Source: Acidisarcina polymorpha
GTDB taxonomy: Bacteria > Acidobacteriota > Terriglobia > Terriglobales > Acidobacteriaceae
Length of the DNA stretch: 64,000 bases
Direction: 5' to 3'
Assembly: GCF_003330725.1 (NCBI RefSeq)
Contig: NZ_CP030843.1
Location: forward strand, 124,001 to 188,000
This document shows positions 34,456 through 60,499 of this stretch, piece after piece. The position numbers were made by a program, and so were the translations under genes. The notes below the pieces were generated by a model. That model made no database searches. It had not been told where the DNA came from and saw only the letters and a list, made by a program, of their open reading frames with translations. Every line of letters starts with the position of its first letter. The first letter of the stretch is position 1.

Positions 34456-35640
34456 TCAGGAAGCCTGCGGCCTTTCAAAGATCTGCTGAATAGGGAGCGC
34501 CGCCGATTGCCGGTTGATTGCGTGGGTGCTGCCTCGCGACGCCCCCGACAAAGATACTTTGGTAGTTACTGGGAAGGGCGCATGGCCGACTCGTGCGTGA
34601 TCGGATCCCCCACCTCCATTCCGAAAGCGCCGGCGATACGCGGCCGGGGTCATGCCCACTAACTTACGGAATACCGTCCCGAAATAGCTTTGATCGCAAA
34701 AGCCCATCTCCTGACTGATAACGGCCATAGACTCGTCGGTATTGACCAGCATTGCTTGGGCGCGTTCGACCCGGTAGTGGTTGAGATATTTCATAAATGA
34801 GAGTCCCGTCACCCGTTTGAAGAAACTCATAAAGTGTGACTCGCACATCCCGCTAATTCGTGACGCCTCCTTGACGTGGATCTGGCTGCCGCAATTCTCT
34901 CCGAGGAATTTAAACAGGGGCAGGAGCCGGTCTAAGTCGCGTTGCTGACGCTGAAACGTCTCTACTGTCCCGGTGTAAGAGACGTATCGATTCAAGAGAA
35001 GAATGAGAATCATTTTGAGGTAGGTCTTAATCGCAAGCCTTCCCCTCGTCGTCTGCGACGGAAGTTCCGAGCGGATGCGCAGCATCAGATCCAAAACCTG
35101 GTTTGGAATCCCAGTCTCTGCAGGCACAACATGCGGGAACTCGGAATCCTGGAGAAGGAACGGAGTGAGGTATTCAGCGCTGTCGCTGCCTCCATCGGAA
35201 CGAATCAGGTCTGGTTCGAAGAAGAGCGCGGCAATCGTTAGAGGAGAAGACTGGCATTCGATGCGGTGATATAGAGTGCTGCCAACAATGGCGAGGTCGC
35301 CCTCCTTGAATGGAAGCAAACGGTCTTGAATATGGCAGTCGGCGGCACCGGAGCAAAGGTACAACACCTCGAAATATCCGTGGCGGTTCATCCGCACGTT
35401 TTGCCGCCCATCCTCAGTTAGAAACAAGACATCCACCGGACATGAAACATCGAAAGGCCAGACATGCACTCCTTCCGCATTGATCTGGGGCTCGACCAGG
35501 CTGAATTGATCCGTGCACGATGTTTTCGGAACGCGGACATGGCCAGTCCGGAGTTGTGGGCGCGTGCGTGGCGGCTCTGCGCAGTGCCTACTAGCACAGC
35601 TGTCAATGCTCAATTCGGAAGATCTCTTCGACTTCGCCAT
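34456..35640 (-). CDS. AraC-family transcriptional regulator
   Basis: From ATG 35640 it has 394 residues. The N-terminal cupin sensor (GYFEVLYLCSGAADCHI, LPFKEGDLAIVGSTLYHRIE) is followed by a typical AraC double HTH (IHVKEASRISGMCESHFMSF, LNHYRVERAQAML, ISQEMGFCDQSYFGTVFRKL, GMTPAAYRRRF). A Ser-rich tail of about 55 residues follows the HTH. It lies upstream of the TonB/glycosidase genes in the same orientation and probably regulates them. The start overlaps the end of the upstream aldolase remnant by 38 bases. Confidence 0.9.
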   Translation of the reverse strand: MAKSKRSSELSIDSCASRHCAEPPRTRPQLRTGHVRVPKTSCTDQFSLVEPQINAEGVHVWPFDVSCPVDVLFLTEDGRQNVRMNRHGYFEVLYLCSGAADCHIQDRLLPFKEGDLAIVGSTLYHRIECQSSPLTIAALFFEPDLIRSDGGSDSAEYLTPFLLQDSEFPHVVPAETGIPNQVLDLMLRIRSELPSQTTRGRLAIKTYLKMILILLLNRYVSYTGTVETFQRQQRDLDRLLPLFKFLGENCGSQIHVKEASRISGMCESHFMSFFKRVTGLSFMKYLNHYRVERAQAMLVNTDESMAVISQEMGFCDQSYFGTVFRKLVGMTPAAYRRRFRNGGGGSDHARVGHAPFPVTTKVSLSGASRGSTHAINRQSAALPIQQIFERPQAS

Positions 35641-40675: not shown

Positions 40676-41182
40676 CTACCTTCGTAGGCCGAAGTTCGCG
40701 TCACAGTAGGCCTTGGATTCTGAGCAAGACAGCTCACGGGATTGAGAGGAAGCAACACGGAGGTAGCTGCCCAGGATGAGGTCGGAAATATCGCCCCAAT
40801 CCAAGGCAAAGCGATCCAAGCGAGCGCCAACCCAGCCTTTCAGCTCAGGGCTGGGAGGAGTGAACCACCGCGAGATGGCGTTCTCTATAGGTTGATGTCT
40901 CTCTCCAGATCGAACCCTGCAGCACACACCAATAACTCCATTACTCCGGTAATCGGAAATATAGTAGGCAAACACTCGTCCGTCGACGAAAAAGGCGGCA
41001 TGCTTCCCCGAGCTCTCCATCCGCACCCCCGGAAGTCTCAGGCAAATCTTCTGGAGTCTGGCTAGACGAAACGGTTGCAGGTCGGCATTTGTCAGACGGG
41101 TCTTTCTTTCCCCGCGCTCGTAGGTTCTTGTTCGTTCACATTCCTTAACATCATGTGTCGGGCCCCAGTCTTCAGAAGTCAT
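40676..41182 (-). CDS. MmcQ/YjbR-family protein
   Basis: A 168-residue protein whose core (LQKICLRLPGVRMESSGKHA, FFVDGRVFAYYIS, GWVGARLDRFALDWGDISDL) matches the CyaY-like DNA-binding MmcQ/YjbR family (about 110-120 residues). The first about 35 residues (ERTRTYERGERKTRLTNADL) may be an over-extended start. Such proteins are thought to bind DNA; no target is implied by the neighbours. Confidence 0.82.
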   Translation of the reverse strand: MTSEDWGPTHDVKECERTRTYERGERKTRLTNADLQPFRLARLQKICLRLPGVRMESSGKHAAFFVDGRVFAYYISDYRSNGVIGVCCRVRSGERHQPIENAISRWFTPPSPELKGWVGARLDRFALDWGDISDLILGSYLRVASSQSRELSCSESKAYCDANFGLRR

Positions 41183-41382
41183 ACGTCTCCTTTCAGCTGA
41201 TCCGCACGGTTAAATCGCAACATCTTTCCGAGTTACGGGACCTAGGGTCATTCAGATCTTCCAATTGCCGCACCCAATGTACATCGATTACTTCAAGAAG
41301 TGCATTCCCCTGAGTGACCTTTGTACGCTCAGATTCAGCTTGGGGATGGTCACTATTGGTCATACATTTCAGAAATTGCACA

Positions 41383-42072
41383 TTTTGATAGATATACTTT
41401 CCCGGCTGAGCTTATGTATTTAGTCGGGAAAGTCACTGAATCCTTCAAAAACCTGCTTCAACAGCTCCAATGAATTGTTAAGGAGGTCGCTGGACTGTAG
41501 CACCGCAATTCAGATTCGCAACCCGATGACCTTTAACTCGCCTCAAATAGTTGAGGAGGACCTTTGACCTTGCGCCTTAGCTGCCGCCGCGATCGCTTAG
41601 GGTCGTTCCGGGTTGAAGGGCACCGGACTACGGGACCTTGGGCGAATGAGATAAGGGCCAGATTGTCCTATGATGGTCATGCCTCCTCACATTTCGGAAC
41701 AAGCAACTCTCCCACCAGTTTTGATAATTGATGAGTTCTTTCAGCGCCTGCTTAACATATGCGAGCGCTTGGTCCCCCCTGCTCTGCCAGTAGACCATAT
41801 TTGTCAGACTTTGCAATGGGTTGGGCTGGAGGGAGGGCATCGACAAACGTCATGAGCTTAAAGCAGTGTGATGTGAAGCTGAGGCGTTGGGTACTAAGCG
41901 TTACCTCCGTATAGTGCTGATCACCTTCGTAATCGTATGGCACAAGAAATAATGCTACCTTTTCACTGGATGTAAATCCTCTTCTCTAGCGTATTGCTGA
42001 CGATTCAGCTAGCGGGCCGCGCCATCGGACCTCGCGCCTGAAACTGAACAGAGACATGCGGGAGATGATCCG
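41383..42072. other. Non-coding or unrecognised
   Basis: About 690 bases. Overlapping short minus-strand frames near 41630-41940 have no recognisable motifs, no SD and no supporting context. I call no gene. Confidence 0.45.
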
Positions 42073-42762
42073 ATGGAGGTTGAAATCGCAACCGCGCGAC
42101 CTGAACTGCCGCTTTCTGCCTTCCAGCCGAACGAGTGGGAGTCGGTACCCGCGTTCACCCCGATTCTGGCAGAGGACCCAAAGTTTCTTGCTCGCCTACC
42201 AGCCGCTCGCCTTACGAAAGCCGGCTCTCTGTTACTTGAACAAGGGTCTGCCATCAAGGCGATATACCTGTTGCAGTGTGGGCTCGTAAAACTCTCGCAT
42301 CTTACCCCCAAAGGATGTGAGGGGACGATCGGGTTAAGGTCTGCAGGATGGTATGTTGGCGCTGTCGCGTCTCTCTTGAGCGCTCGACCCGTCTACACGG
42401 TGCGAACCGTAACGGATTGTATGGCGGTTAGGATCCCAACCGCCCTGTTCTCGCGGCTACTCAGGGAATCCCCGGAGATGGCTCAACATCTTTTGGAAAT
42501 CCTTTGCATTGAAGTAGCTTCGCAAGCAAGCTTCCAGATCGAAATGGCGTGCTATTCAGCAGAAGAGCGTTTACACCACTTTATGAGCGAGCGGGAGAGG
42601 GTACTCCCCTTAGGAAAATCTCTTGCACCCCTCCCTATGCTTAAACAACTGGAGGTCGGTCAACTGCTTTCGATTACCCCCGAGTATCTCAATCGCTTGC
42701 TTCACAAGAGGAAATTGCTTAAAGCGCTTCGGCCGCAAAAGTCTTACGTCAAACTGGTTTAG
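42073..42762 (+). CDS. Crp/Fnr-family transcriptional regulator
   Basis: A 229-residue protein with a cyclic-nucleotide-binding-like domain (LLEQGSAIKAIYLLQCGLVKL, about residues 55-75) and a C-terminal winged helix (QLLSITPEYLNRLLHKRKLL). The Cys residues expected of an Fnr iron-sulfur cluster are absent from the N-terminus, so a ligand or redox input is not predictable. It precedes the coiled-coil protein gene at 42934 and may regulate it. Confidence 0.82.
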   Translation: MEVEIATARPELPLSAFQPNEWESVPAFTPILAEDPKFLARLPAARLTKAGSLLLEQGSAIKAIYLLQCGLVKLSHLTPKGCEGTIGLRSAGWYVGAVASLLSARPVYTVRTVTDCMAVRIPTALFSRLLRESPEMAQHLLEILCIEVASQASFQIEMACYSAEERLHHFMSERERVLPLGKSLAPLPMLKQLEVGQLLSITPEYLNRLLHKRKLLKALRPQKSYVKLV

Positions 42763-42933
42763 TTAAGAAGCCAAAGGAAATCGTCCAAAGGGTCAACGTC
42801 TGTGCTGCTTTCCGGAGGGATGAAAGATCGCTATCTATGGACCTCTTGTGCAATAAATCAATAAATCGATCGGCCACACATTCGCTGGGTTGACTTCGTT
42901 TGCAACAGTCCCACCGGAAGGATGTATTCATCT

Positions 42934-43290
42934 ATGAGTAGAATCGACGAGCTCAAGCAAGACGTGAGAATCCTGGAAGCCCAGTTCAAGTCTAAAATGG
43001 ACCAACTCTACGCTGCAGAGTCTGCTCTCTTTCACATCAAGACAGGAGACCTGCTGCAACTAGAAGAAGGAACCTACGGCCATTCCAAACGGACGGTGTA
43101 CATAGTGAGTAGGATCATTTTCTCCCTGCGCGGAGAATCGATTTTATTCGGCCATAAGCAATTGAAGGATAGAAGGTCATTCCATCACCGGGAGGTAAGA
43201 GTCTGTTTAGACTTCGAGGAGCCCACAGTGATTGGGCGTGTTGAGGACTGGCGCGGATTGTGTGCTAATACGGTTCTGAAGCGGCTCTAA
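42934..43290 (+). CDS. Coiled-coil protein of unknown function, paralog 1
   Basis: A 118-residue protein: an N-terminal helix of about 35 residues (MSRIDELKQDVRILEAQFKS, likely coiled coil) and a C-terminal beta-rich domain (FHIKTGDLLQLEEGTYGHSK, RTVYIVSRIIFSLRGESILF, GHKQLKDRRSFHHREVRVCL). The start at ATG 42934 is preferred over 42922 because paralog 2 (43961) begins at the equivalent residue. I know no named family. Two copies lie one after the other between Crp-type regulators. Confidence 0.65.
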   Translation: MSRIDELKQDVRILEAQFKSKMDQLYAAESALFHIKTGDLLQLEEGTYGHSKRTVYIVSRIIFSLRGESILFGHKQLKDRRSFHHREVRVCLDFEEPTVIGRVEDWRGLCANTVLKRL

Positions 43291-43787
43291 TTGTCGATTT
43301 CTGAAACAACAGCCGTACCAAGTGTGCCGGTTTGCAATATCTTCACTGATTCGTAAGGAAGGGGTCGAGCGGAGGACGCAGGGCAAGGAGCCACGAACGA
43401 AGAGTCGTGCTCAGAAATGACCTAACGGCGGATACCCCAATCTACTCTTCAAAGCACATCCAACGAGTTCGCAACCATATGCAGCGGAGCAAAAGACGGC
43501 GATAGAACCGCCTCGGAAAACGCTGCGCGTATCCCACTTTCCCTCCGCACGGCTGCGGCGGGGTTCTCTCTCAAAAGTAATCCGGCCACTTGTTGGAGGC
43601 CGTCGCTTGAGTTACATTAACTGCAAATCTGCCGGTAAATCCGGCACGAATCGAAACCCCGCAGGTCGAAATTTCCAACCTGCTGCGGCTCAGTTTCCCG
43701 GGGGGGGTAACATTTGCTGATATTTTTGCCGTTCACGAGCGGCTAGAGTTTGCTTACGTTTCTTAGGGCGAAAAGAATAGCACGTCA

Positions 43788-43803
43788 TGTTCAGTATTGA
43801 CCA
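43788..43803. promoter_or_regulatory. Operator-like palindrome, copy 1
   Basis: TGTTCAGTATTGACCA matches the perfect palindrome at 45036-45051 at 14 of 16 positions. It lies about 160 bases upstream of paralog 2. Possibly the site of one of the local Crp/Fnr-type regulators. Confidence 0.4.
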
Positions 43804-43833
43804 TACAAGCGTCCTAAGCCACGTGATAACTTC

Positions 43834-43857
43834 CCGGGTAGGTAGGTAGGTAGGTAG
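43834..43857. repeat. (GTAG)n tandem repeat
   Basis: About five tandem copies of the unit GTAG (GGGTAGGTAGGTAGGTAGG and on), an uncommon tetranucleotide run in the leader of paralog 2. Prone to slipped-strand length changes. Confidence 0.8.
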
Positions 43858-43960
43858 GCGGGCGACGCGTGACGATGTCGGAGTAGGCCACTCTGATATG
43901 CGAGATATCTCGTACGCCTCGCCGCGCCGGCCTGGCTACTCTTAGATCAAGGAGTCTTCC

Positions 43961-44403
43961 ATGGGCAAAATTGACAACATGAGGCAGGAAGTAAGGCTCA
44001 TAAAGGCGCAGCTCAAGTTGAAGATGGAGGAGCTCCACGCCGCACAATCTGCTGAATTTCGCCTAAAGGTCGGAGACCTCCTCATAAAAAGGAGGGCGAG
44101 TATGCAAATCCAACATGCAAGGTGTACATGATATCAAAGCTGGTTTTTCACACAAACCAAACACCCATAATGTACGGCAGACAGCGCTTGAAGGACGGGA
44201 TCTCGTTTCACTCGACGGAGACAGTTCTGTGTTTCCGCGCCGACGAGCTGCCGATGGCAATTGGCCATGTGGATCACTGGCAGAAACTCCTCCAAGTAAA
44301 GTCTAAGACTTACCGAGGTAGCTGGACCAAGCCTTCGGTCGTACGCTCCCCCTATCCGACATGCAAGCCCTTTCAACAGATGAGTAATTCAGCTCAGCAA
44401 TAA
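43961..44403 (+). pseudogene. Coiled-coil protein, paralog 2, split by a -1 frame change
   Basis: ATG 43961, with AAGGAG upstream, opens MGKIDNMRQEVRLIKAQLKL, the same helix as paralog 1. At 44086-44095 (ATA AAA AGG AGG) the matching sense moves to the -1 frame: EGEYANPTCKVYMISKLVFH, MYGRQRLKDGISFHSTETVL and ELPMAIGHVDHWQ align with paralog 1 to its end. The 0 frame stops at 44129-44131. The run of five A followed by tandem rare AGG codons is a slippage-prone site, so programmed frameshifting cannot be excluded, but a lost or gained A is simpler. Confidence 0.65.
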
Positions 44404-44532
44404 CAATACGCCACTGGGCTCCTCTAAGAGCCGCGAAGTGAGTGCAAACGTCGGAGACACTCATCGATATCACTGCTATTCGCCTTATGCTCAACCGGCG
44501 GACCCACTGACATAACACTTTTCAAACACCCT

Positions 44533-44808
44533 CTAAGAACGCGAAATGGCACCAAGGGACTTTGCCCGATGTATTGCCGCCTCGGATTCATCCCGCCTTT
44601 GTCCAGTAGAGAGGCTCTCTAAAAGTTTGCTCCAGATATCTGGTCGTGCAGAACCACGTTGAGCCAAGCCTTGTGGACGTAAATGGCGCTCCTTGTATTC
44701 GATATACCCCAGCTTGCGGAAGCGATTCATAAAAAGACCCACACGCGACCGGGTTGTCCCGACCATTATGACCCGACGCACTCTCGTGGGTAGTCGATAG
44801 TCACCCAT
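44533..44808 (-). pseudogene. Crp/Fnr C-terminal fragment
   Basis: MVGTTRSRVGLFMNRFRKLG (recognition helix) then GYIEYKER, and a tail that matches the 3' end of the gene at 45330 in DNA. The sensory domain is missing and an extra base near 44688 shifts the tail frame. One of three copies of this 3' end in the window. Confidence 0.75.
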
Positions 44809-45329
44809 TCGCGAGCTTGCGCCCGATACTTGCCTACGCGACTTTGGGCGCGCTTTGAAGGTGCCAGCTTAGACGCGAAATGCAGCAAAGATTTGCAGCA
44901 CTTAAATAGCATTTGCTAAGACGAGTGAACCAAGGAGTCTTCAAGCTTTGGGACGAAAGTTTCTGCGACCAAGTCTATACCGTGACCCTGGCATGTAAGG
45001 ACTGACCATTTGTACGTCCTTACCTCGCTGAAAGATGGTCAATATTGACCAGTCGGTTCGGATTCAACGCTTGAGGTGGTCTGCTAAAAGTGCTGTTCCG
45101 GTGAACAACCTTTTGACGTTCCTTAGCAGTTACTTGGTACCACAATTGCCGAAGCAAAAGCGCAGGACCTTAGGCCTCATAAAATGAGGTATTCCACGGA
45201 GAGACGTATACACAAACTTAAGAAATTACAGAGGCACTTAACTTCGAGGGCGGGGTTCAAACGCTACCTTTGTGTAAGTTGTGTCAACCAATAAGTAGCA
45301 CTCGCTGACAGGCCCCTAATCGGCAGGCG
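44809..45329. other. Intergenic with a hairpin and a perfect palindrome
   Basis: About 520 bases. GTAAGGAC (44995-45002) pairs with GTCCTTAC (45016-45023), and 13 bases later comes the palindrome at 45036-45051. No frame is convincing. Confidence 0.5.
45036..45051. promoter_or_regulatory. Perfect 16-base palindrome, operator-like
   Basis: TGGTCAATATTGACCA is fully self-complementary. The arms GGTCAA/TTGACC face inward, the reverse of an Fnr box. A 14/16 copy sits at 43788-43803 upstream of paralog 2. Inferred regulator site. Confidence 0.5.
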
Positions 45330-46103
45330 TTAAGAGCGCGAAATGGCACGTAAGGCTTTGCCCGGTGCCTTGCCGCCTCGGATTCGTCCCGGCCTTCGTC
45401 CAGAAGAGAGGCGTTCTGAAAGTTTGCTCCGGAAACCTGGTCGTGCAGAATCACGTTGAGCAAAGCCCCTGTGAACGTAAATGCGCTCCTCGTATTCGAC
45501 ATAGCCCAGCTTCCGGAAGCTATTCATGAAAAAACTCACGCGCGATCGGGTCGTCCCAATCATTTCGGCTAGATCTTGCTGCGTAATCCGGGGAATAAGT
45601 GTTTTCTCGTCGGCGACTTCTCCCGGCTGCCCGAACTCGGCCATCAACAACAGAACTCTTGCCAGACGCTTTTCACTGGAATTAAAAAGTTGGTCAACAA
45701 GGTCGGCTTGGGTTCGCATACTGCGGACCAGCAGAGACGCTATAAACAGATCGGAGAAGGTACGTTGCTCATGCAGAACGCGGATTATCTCCTTTCTTTC
45801 CATCTTGAGTGCGCTACACCCGGTGACAGCTGTCGCTGTCGCCAGATGCGGCCCGGCAGCCGCCGCAATGCATGCCTCTCCAATGAAGTCGCCGGCCGTG
45901 AAAACGGTGATCGTGGCTTCTTTTCCGGCTGCGGAAACAATCGTGAGCCTGGCCCGGCCCTTTTGAAGGTAAAAGACCGATTCGCAGCGACTTCCCTGCG
46001 AAAAGAAGACTTCGCCTTCCATCAAGCGCACAATCTTGTGGCCGAAAGCAGCGGTGGTGAGATAGGTTGCGGGGTCAAATGCAGTTTGGGTCGGATTCTT
46101 CAC
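45330..46103 (-). CDS. Crp/Fnr-family regulator with frameshifted tail
   Basis: A cNMP-binding-like domain (GEVFFSQGSRCESVFYLQKG, FTAGDFIGEACIAAA) is followed by the Crp winged helix (PRITQQDLAEMIGTTRSRVS, FFMNSFRKLGYVEYEERIYV). After HRG the frame differs from its relatives: the copy at 54965 reads ALLNLILQDQVSKTNFQNAS, and the same sense exists here one frame over. An extra C in the run at 45466-45469 explains it. The domain core is intact, so the protein may still work with an aberrant about 45-residue tail. Confidence 0.85.
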   Translation of the reverse strand: MKNPTQTAFDPATYLTTAAFGHKIVRLMEGEVFFSQGSRCESVFYLQKGRARLTIVSAAGKEATITVFTAGDFIGEACIAAAAGPHLATATAVTGCSALKMERKEIIRVLHEQRTFSDLFIASLLVRSMRTQADLVDQLFNSSEKRLARVLLLMAEFGQPGEVADEKTLIPRITQQDLAEMIGTTRSRVSFFMNSFRKLGYVEYEERIYVHRGFAQRDSARPGFRSKLSERLSSGRRPGRIRGGKAPGKALRAISRS

Positions 46104-46238
46104 GAATGCTCTTCCACACCGTCTCTCACGGTGTACACCGCAAGCTCAGACTATGTCGGGTAGCAAACAAAACTCTTTACAGCAGGTTGATAGGGATAAC
46201 ACTTTCGTAGCTGTGTTTGCCCGGCAAAAGGTCTGTCG

Positions 46239-46709
46239 CCGGAGCCGTTTTCTTGTGCCTGTAGATTGAAACTGATTCATGAACAGATAGCACTGACCAA
46301 CCGAACCACTAAGCTGCTTTAAAGTTAAAAAGTCTCGCTCAAGAGCCATAACCCTAGGTTTTGTACCCGGTCACTATGCCCCAAAGTCTCAGGTACGATG
46401 GCCTTCTGTTCCGGTCTGGTTTGGAACGTGGATTGGGCTGAGTGTCAACGCATCCCCGAGCAAGCGTCTTAGTGCTCCGATCAAATGATTCGGCTGGGAA
46501 TCGATTATTTCCGATGGATAAACGTTATCCGTATCCATTCTGTTCTCGATCTTAAGGACCAGAAGATGTGGATACCTCTCCCGAAGCCTCTGGTCAAGGC
46601 CTTTTTGTTCGATGGTAGAATTCCGCCTATCAAGATGAGATCAAAGTGCTCCGTTTCAAGCAGTGCCAAGGCGGCGTTATCCGAATCAACGGCTGCCACC
46701 TCATAGCCG
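46239..46709. repeat. 471-bp near-identical repeat, copy A
   Basis: Identical to 60029-60499 except for one base (G at 46474, A at 60264), by direct line-by-line reading. It contains the 3' part of a response-regulator gene plus about 240 bases beyond. The left edge begins in the middle of what is a complete terminator hairpin in copy C, so copy A appears to derive from copy C. Confidence 0.93.
46505..46709 (-). pseudogene. Degenerate receiver-domain gene fragment (copy A)
   Basis: GYEVAAVDSDNAALALLETE, HFDLILIGG, then a frame break caused by a missing G (TTCCGCC at 46621-46627 versus TTCCGGCC in the full gene at 50793-51188). The first about 28 codons are lost at the repeat edge. Confidence 0.85.
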
Positions 46710-50528: not shown

Positions 50529-50770
50529 GATGTTCTACCTTTAGGGTTGAAGGTTTCAAGAGGTTCATTTGCCGTATGGATAATGCGTCATACACGAAGC
50601 CGTTCAGGTTCTGGACGCCCATCGATTTCGTTCAACGGCCCCGAGTGGGAAGCTCACAATCAAGGTTAGGTTGCTGTCCTATCGAAAATATGATCTTTTA
50701 TTTCACTAGACTTGATGGCCCGTCCTTGGGGTTCTGTGCTCGCACCGAGCGTCACGGCACCGGATGTGTG

Positions 50771-51152
50771 CCCGGTCACTATGCCCAAATTCTCAGGTAC
50801 GATGGCCTTCTGTTCCGGTCTGGTTTGGAACGTGGATTGGGCTGAGTGTCAACGCATCCCCGAGCAAGCGCCTTAGTGCTTCGATCAAATGATTTGGCTG
50901 GGAATCGATTATTTCCGACGGATAAACGTTATCCGTATCCATTCTGTTCTCGATCTTAAGGATCAGAAGATGTGGATACCTCTCCCGAAGCCTCTGGTCA
51001 AGGCCTTTTTGTTCGATGGTAGAATTCCGGCCTATCAAGATGAGATCAAAGTGCTCCGTTTCAAGCAGTTTCAAGGCGGCGTTATCCGAATCAACGGCTG
51101 CCACCTCATAGCCGGCGTTGTTAAGCAACGCCACTCGAGTGGTCTGGAGGGG
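50771..51152. repeat. Diverged copy B of the response-regulator repeat
   Basis: Homologous to 60165-60537 (copy C) and to 46375-46709 (copy A) with about ten differences, including the G that restores the reading frame. Shares with C, but not with A, the segment coding LQTTRVALLNNAG. Confidence 0.88.
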
Positions 51153-60010: not shown

Positions 60011-60044
60011 AAGAAAACAAGGCTCCTCCCGGAGCCGTTTTCTT
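60011..60044 (+). terminator. Rho-independent terminator, broken in copy A
   Basis: AAGAAAAC AA GGCTCC / TCCC / GGAGCC GTTTTCTT: a 14-base-pair stem with a two-base bulge and a T-rich descending arm. The duplicated copy at 46239 begins in the loop and carries only the descending arm. Confidence 0.85.
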
Positions 60045-60499
60045 GTGCCTGTAGATTGAAACTGATTCATGAACAGATAGCACTGACCAACCGAACCACT
60101 AAGCTGCTTTAAAGTTAAAAAGTCTCGCTCAAGAGCCATAACCCTAGGTTTTGTACCCGGTCACTATGCCCCAAAGTCTCAGGTACGATGGCCTTCTGTT
60201 CCGGTCTGGTTTGGAACGTGGATTGGGCTGAGTGTCAACGCATCCCCGAGCAAGCGTCTTAGTACTCCGATCAAATGATTCGGCTGGGAATCGATTATTT
60301 CCGATGGATAAACGTTATCCGTATCCATTCTGTTCTCGATCTTAAGGACCAGAAGATGTGGATACCTCTCCCGAAGCCTCTGGTCAAGGCCTTTTTGTTC
60401 GATGGTAGAATTCCGCCTATCAAGATGAGATCAAAGTGCTCCGTTTCAAGCAGTGCCAAGGCGGCGTTATCCGAATCAACGGCTGCCACCTCATAGCCG
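60029..60499. repeat. 471-bp near-identical repeat, copy C
   Basis: Differs from 46239-46709 only at 60264. Copy C continues homologous to copy B up to about 60537, which copy A does not, and has the complete terminator at its left edge. It is therefore the likely donor. Confidence 0.93.

Follow-up and report, generated by a model that had tools for sequence, protein, structure and literature searches.

What is encoded by the two related genes that sit between Crp/Fnr-type regulator genes on a replicon of Acidisarcina polymorpha, and how is their expression controlled? Both genes lie in the window analysed here, a 64,000-nucleotide stretch of DNA that corresponds to positions 124001-188000 of the 196,405-bp contig C4. 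The host genome measures 7.6 Mb in five contigs, among them contigs of 7,112,011, 108,812 and 196,405 bp. Judging from PMC6252331, contigs C3 and C4 would be plasmids of A. polymorpha SBC82.

Gene copies and protein family

The initial annotation described two paralogs in tandem at this locus, and both are present. The first, which we call type A (42934-43290, + strand), is intact and encodes a protein of 118 amino acids with a pI of 9.0, an N-terminal helix and a predicted beta domain. Its start codon at 42934 is common to the four A copies with an intact 5′ end. The second, type B (43961-44403, + strand), turned out to be damaged: its protein opens with MGKIDNMRQEVRLIKAQLK, the frame is broken near 44083-44095, and the helix half lies in one frame and the beta half (LKDGISFH) in another. 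Intact B copies were found at other sites of the same genome.

Altogether, the genome contains 12 gene copies of the family (5 A and 7 B) and two fragments, together with an additional weak remnant at C3:64270 (E 0.006). The chromosome, C3 and C4 carry four copies each. Nine of the 12 are intact, namely the A genes of the window, C3a, C4a and C1a and the B genes C1z, C1b, C3a, C1c and C4a, while the A gene C3b and the B gene C3c lack their 5′ ends and the frame of the window B is broken. Some intact chromosomal copies are singletons, with A alone at C1:2205168 and B alone at C1:2944041 and C1:362. The DNA abutting the 5′-truncated B (C3:43992; locus L025, C3:37001-51000) and the 5′-truncated A (C3:26221; locus L020, C3:20001-34000) is related, with 80% identity over about 245 bp, and looks transposase-like by eye at B.

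Window A aligns with the six other B copies at 36-42% identity over 94-112 amino acids, with E-values of 1.7e-20 to 5.9e-27, and on these alignments the similarity between A and B is far beyond chance. Identity to window A is 66-86% for the other A copies. Among the A copies, once the near-identical pair C4a-C3b (0.57 at a dS of 0.01) is set aside, the dN/dS ratio ranges from 0.18 to 0.39; among the B copies, it ranges from 0.11 to 0.30. Values of 0.11-0.39 show that A and B are real proteins and that purifying selection acts on them. Each of the 11 aligned members is basic, with a pI of 8.8-9.8. An AlphaFold model built from three window rows predicts a helix at residues 3-40 followed by strands, with a mean pLDDT of 47 and values of about 85 only for residues 1-20. 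Only the N-terminal helix is thus modelled with any confidence, and the beta strands after it are suggested. The predicted helix and strands are consistent with the coiled coil and beta domain that had been proposed from the sequence; a model of this quality cannot prove the fold. Taken together, A and B form two branches of one family of small and basic proteins that are probably cytosolic. They probably also bind nucleic acid, a property that, given the poor structure model, we derive from charge and architecture.

To place the family, we searched for relatives at increasing distance. There was no A or B match at E up to 0.001 in 99 other relatives, and the profile search of 396 other genomes of the order gave 0 matches at E up to 0.01. 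No genome was marked as the same genus in the relatives listing and no second Acidisarcina species was among the genomes searched, so that restriction to the species and restriction to the genus are indistinguishable. At E up to 1, matches occurred in 17 of 398 other genomes of the class sample (best E 0.072) and in 15 of 395 of the phylum sample (best E 0.0127); the two samples share genomes with each other and with the relatives and order samples, and their totals are not additive. As these matches were short and scattered, with a best E of 0.0127, they were taken as chance. The profile prefilter scored some candidates only (for instance 9 or 10 per genome in the class and phylum samples), and very distant relatives could therefore be missed. 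No relative appeared among genome contigs, viral contigs, plasmids and phages either.

Comparison of all 11 members with Pfam, PHROGs and PADLOC gave no meaningful match. Five families in these collections were each matched by a single member with best E-values of 0.011-0.56; the two PADLOC matches, each to one of the 11 members, had E-values of 0.011 and 0.055. NCBIfam, queried with window A and one B, likewise gave no meaningful match, and PDB sequences, queried with the profile and window A, gave no relative. Among the literature matches listed, no paper carried the word Acidisarcina. The proposal of an undescribed gene family is thus borne out by the absence of any meaningful match in Pfam, NCBIfam, PHROGs, PADLOC and PDB together with purifying selection. 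A complete lack of homologs had been named in advance as an argument against such a family; outside the own genome the searches indeed gave none, while inside it there are multi-copy, constrained paralogs, and these argue for a real family. On the searches made, A and B form a real, undescribed family that belongs to none of the families tested and is seen in one genome.

A structured RNA element upstream of B

Alignment of the regions upstream of the B genes revealed a block of about 95 nt that is as conserved as the gene itself. In the window, this block corresponds to a structured RNA element of about 96 nt (43846-43941, + strand), which forms the leader of B and ends 19 nt before the start codon. 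In all six B genes whose 5′ end is intact, the element is located 17-20 nt before the start codon. This leader and the palindrome described below are features beyond the initial annotation. At the start of the window leader (43837-43858), a GGTA repeat is expanded relative to the other B loci.

To assess the fold, we aligned 10 of the 11 element copies by sequence only, omitting C4a, which equals C1c over the element. The consensus consists of an outer stem and two inner hairpins, and 90.4% of the alignment cells pair. Seven pairs show changes on both sides, compared with 2.6 in shuffled alignments, of which 1 in 500 reached this number, and with no more than 3 when the structure was slid along the alignment, and the covariation score of 0.213 exceeds both the shuffles (0.155) and the slides (at most 0.072); eight of the 11 copies served to derive the structure, and this gives it an advantage over the slid controls. 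The number of further pair types is less clear-cut (25 versus 21.5, with 10 of 500 shuffles as high). Five elements scored 104-112 bits on the sense strand and 15-20 bits on the antisense strand. Folding of single copies gave strong z-scores for C3a (-4.08), C1c (-4.01), C1z (-2.45), C1:5108269 (-2.80) and C3:58500 (-2.71) and weak ones for C1b (-1.10) and C4:45192 (-1.41); the window copy reached -3.14 over a longer stretch. These results show that a conserved structured leader precedes every B gene with an intact 5′ end and carries compensatory changes on the sense strand. A structured leader for A was unsupported, with z-scores of 0.43 and -0.57 upstream of the two A copies folded.

The element also changes slowly. 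Comparison of C1z with C3a, C1c, C4a and C1b gave element distances of 0.13-0.21 and a B dS of 1.06-1.77; individually, distances of 0.13, 0.17 and 0.21 compare with a dS of 1.06 (C1z-C3a), 1.15 (C1z-C1c) and 1.77 (C1z-C1b). For C1z and the window, the element distance was 0.23 and the dS 0.80 over the half of the gene compared. By these distances the element is more conserved than the synonymous sites of B, and its divergence is at about the level of B's amino-acid-changing divergence.

A covariance model detected 11 element copies in the own genome and none in 199 other genomes at E up to 0.1, in a scan of 200 genomes that used stricter filters and scored only 20 candidates per genome. Neither window positions 41000-46500 nor five loci with element copies matched Rfam 15 at E up to 1. 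The RNA model R2, run on 33 palindrome loci of other genomes and three more, reached a best E of 0.59, and viral contigs contained no match to an exact pattern of the element. One DNA match to the leader, in genome G017 (58 bp, 76%, E 2e-4), was discarded, as its surroundings look coding-like by eye and the match was not reproduced by the RNA model; we also rejected two shorter ones, in G064 and G076. A published survey reportedly lists 104 candidate structured RNAs, from which the element is set apart only by the missing Rfam match.

Five of the 11 element copies have no B downstream: C1:5108269, C4:45192, C3:58500 and the weaker C1:842404 (E 0.0014) and C1:1276120 (E 0.026). Instead of a leader proper to B, the element may therefore be a dispersed repeat or a small RNA. 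In the full form of this alternative, the small RNA or repeat would stand alone and have its own promoter, and one duplication lineage would have captured B downstream of it, with the element playing no specific role in B control. A YjbR-like gene, either whole or truncated (the latter recognised by eye), stands before three of the five B-less copies, and the divergent copy at C1:1276120 keeps the palindrome at the same distance without B. In addition, a -10-like TGnTAA, identified by eye, stands just before the element in 5 of the 11 copies, three with B (window, C3a, C1b) and two without (C4:45192, C3:58500). However, this explanation has to face the tight 17-20 nt spacing at six of six B genes, and an element divergence about as low as the amino-acid-changing divergence of B. 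We regard it as possible but rather doubtful. The divergent copy at C1:1276120 (locus L090) lies about 0.35 kb before a gene that resembles, by eye, a zinc-ribbon/membrane-protein gene.

Crp/Fnr genes and a Crp-geometry palindrome

Flanking of the pair by Crp/Fnr genes had been noted from the sequence, and this is what we found. Upstream, a Crp/Fnr-type gene (42073-42762, + strand) is located between the YjbR-like gene and A; its product scores 47.8 bits against cNMP_binding, with no HTH match in the Pfam search, and it is not part of the repeated block. Downstream, a Crp/Fnr-type regulator gene (45330-46103, - strand) is convergent with B, and its product matches cNMP_binding with 62.0 and HTH_Crp_2 with 45.9 bits, above the cut-offs of 27.5 and 27. 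A remnant of a second Crp of the 45330 type, reduced to the HTH end, is found at 44533-44808 (- strand). The YjbR-like gene itself (40676-41182, - strand) has relatives directly before A at other loci and ahead of stand-alone element copies; on C3 and C4 such a gene precedes A, and at C1:826 kb one precedes an A fragment. The protein encoded at 40676-41182 resembles YjbR/MmcQ (PF04237; E 3e-5, 25.0 bits; 20.3 bits for a second copy), yet remains below the gathering cut-off of 30.1 and is thus not filed as a member.

The region had been called rearranged, and pieces of the block indeed recur at no fewer than eight other places in the genome. Blocks of the DNA that surrounds A and B are found again on C3, on C1 and at a second C4 locus. 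The latter is the most complete, with the YjbR-like gene, A, a degraded small ORF, the palindrome, the RNA element, B and a convergent Crp gene whose end is about 130 bp from the end of B. The small ORF between A and B, zinc-ribbon-like with a SICLxCF motif, was rejected as a part of the module, with an internal stop in three of its four own-genome matches. In a search of 60 other genomes, this ORF (L018 13900-14175, motif read by eye) had relatives in 4. A second Crp/Fnr type (HTH_Crp_2; L018 11150-11860 and 1-499) occurs in several copies on C3 and C4, including a 97% inverted copy on C3. Further repeats were observed in the window: 46362-46709 and 50767-51114 form a 349-bp direct repeat with 97% identity, and 46239-46700 recurs at 100% at C4:184029-184490 (window position about 60029-60490), and on C5.

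Crp sites have a 5-N6-5 geometry, and in class II activation the centre of the site is located about 41.5 nt before the transcription start. The window contains a palindrome of this geometry, TGTTCAGTATTGACCA (43788-43803), which has two mismatches to TGGTCAATATTGACCA and is centred 42.5 nt before the leader's first GTAGG. The Crp-remnant ORF begins 228 bp downstream of the perfect palindrome TGGTCAATATTGACCA (45036-45051), and the YjbR-like gene begins 165 bp downstream of a weaker copy with three mismatches (41347-41362). With two other matches, at 43962 in the coding start of B and at 34733 far away, the window holds five TGGTCAATATTGACCA matches at up to three mismatches, compared with 0.15 expected. 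Throughout the genome, we counted 12 sites at up to two mismatches versus 3 in the control, and each of the four sites at up to one mismatch has an A or B gene within 5 kb.

The position of the palindrome relative to the element is similar across loci. Its centre lies 41.5-43.5 nt before the element at five of six B loci (window, C3a, C4a, C1c and C1z), and 43.5 nt before it at the unrelated place C1:1276120, where the palindrome is 14/16 symmetric with four mismatches to the consensus. It is absent at the B locus C1b and at four of the five B-less element copies; where present, 10-14 of 16 positions are symmetric. No sigma-70 promoter was found by a simple scan, and the chromosomal 45330-type Crp genes have no site at up to two mismatches within 50 kb.

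Among 100 relatives, the own genome included, a site at up to one mismatch occurs in 24 genomes, and the backward control in 1. In other genera, a 45330-type Crp was found at 3 of 33 site loci, with the site about 230-315 bp before the extrapolated start; two of these Crp matches span about 200 amino acids and one 65, one more site locus has a fragment, and 29 of the 33 loci are without such a Crp. None of 22 control loci had one; since these were loci on hand, fewer and shorter (67.5 kb versus 119 kb), the 0/22 is weak and the link between site and Crp in other genera is suggestive only.

At four of seven B loci, a 45330-type Crp gene is located near B, at a distance of 0.9 kb in the window, 2.2 kb at C3a with another Crp gene between, and about 130 bp at C4a and C1c. 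The latter two are 95.7% identical over 2.6 kb, which leaves about three independent pairings. The linkage between Crp and B inside the own genome is thus real but partial. It could mean that A and B are partners or co-regulators of the neighbouring Crp/Fnr protein, which they would sense or modulate, and not nucleic-acid binders, and the location of the genome's best Crp-geometry sites near A and B genes points the same way as the convergent Crp. Three of the seven B loci, however, have no such Crp nearby, and the lone A at C1:2205168 is also without a 45330-type Crp, which makes a partnership of this kind quite improbable.

Discussion

Our preferred reading joins these observations into a Crp-activated promoter, a regulatory leader and A/B proteins as small basic nucleic-acid binders, with a probability of roughly 0.4. 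A Crp/Fnr regulator of the neighbouring 45330 type would bind the palindrome about 41.5 nt upstream of the transcription start and activate transcription. The transcript would then fold into the three-helix leader, and this leader may gate B translation. The A or B protein would dimerise through its N-terminal coiled coil, and its basic beta domain would bind nucleic acid; the likeliest target is RNA or DNA from the same module. As the family copies are duplicates, the counts given above are not independent.

A more specific version seems unlikely to us. Here, A, B and the element would form a plasmid-amplified RNA-protein module in which the Crp-activated, three-helix RNA of about 96 nt is the target of the basic A/B proteins; it would serve as an autoregulatory leader at B, and the stand-alone copies would act in trans, as a small RNA or a protein sponge. 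If this were true, it would be a new RNA class together with a new RNA-binding protein class in one acidobacterial lineage. If RNA and protein recognise each other, the lineage would be building a new control unit and spreading it on plasmids. It is very improbable that A and B are instead a plasmid-stabilising (addiction) or anti-defence module. In its favour, 8 of the 12 copies are located on two plasmids, which account for 4% of the genome, and several copies are decayed or truncated. Against it stand the lack of any meaningful PADLOC, Pfam or PHROG match and the intact chromosomal singletons (A at C1:2205168; B at C1:2944041 and C1:362), each without the other type.

Orphan genes usually give no handle on function. 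In this case, nine intact diverged copies, a covarying RNA and a candidate operator at fixed spacing in one genome make control and function directly testable. In this soil bacterium, the B branch of the family, with a folded RNA and a likely Crp-type control site ahead of it, therefore offers a testable gene-control unit.

How does this arrangement compare with known systems? With cis-regulatory leader RNAs such as riboswitches and ribosomal-protein-type leaders, the element shares a folded RNA directly before the start and compensatory changes; it differs from them in having no Rfam match, in its presence in 1 of 200 genomes scanned and in occurring also without the gene. The palindrome shares the 5-N6-5 geometry with Crp/Fnr class II operators, and its centre at 41.5-43.5 nt before the element would fit class II activation. 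Its half-site is TGGTC, whereas the E. coli CRP half-site is TGTGA, and we regard it as a candidate operator known from sequence. Finally, A and B are like lineage-restricted orphan families amplified on plasmids in their lone genome, many diverged copies, plasmid bias and decay, but unlike these families, one of the two branches, B, has a conserved RNA element and a candidate operator attached.
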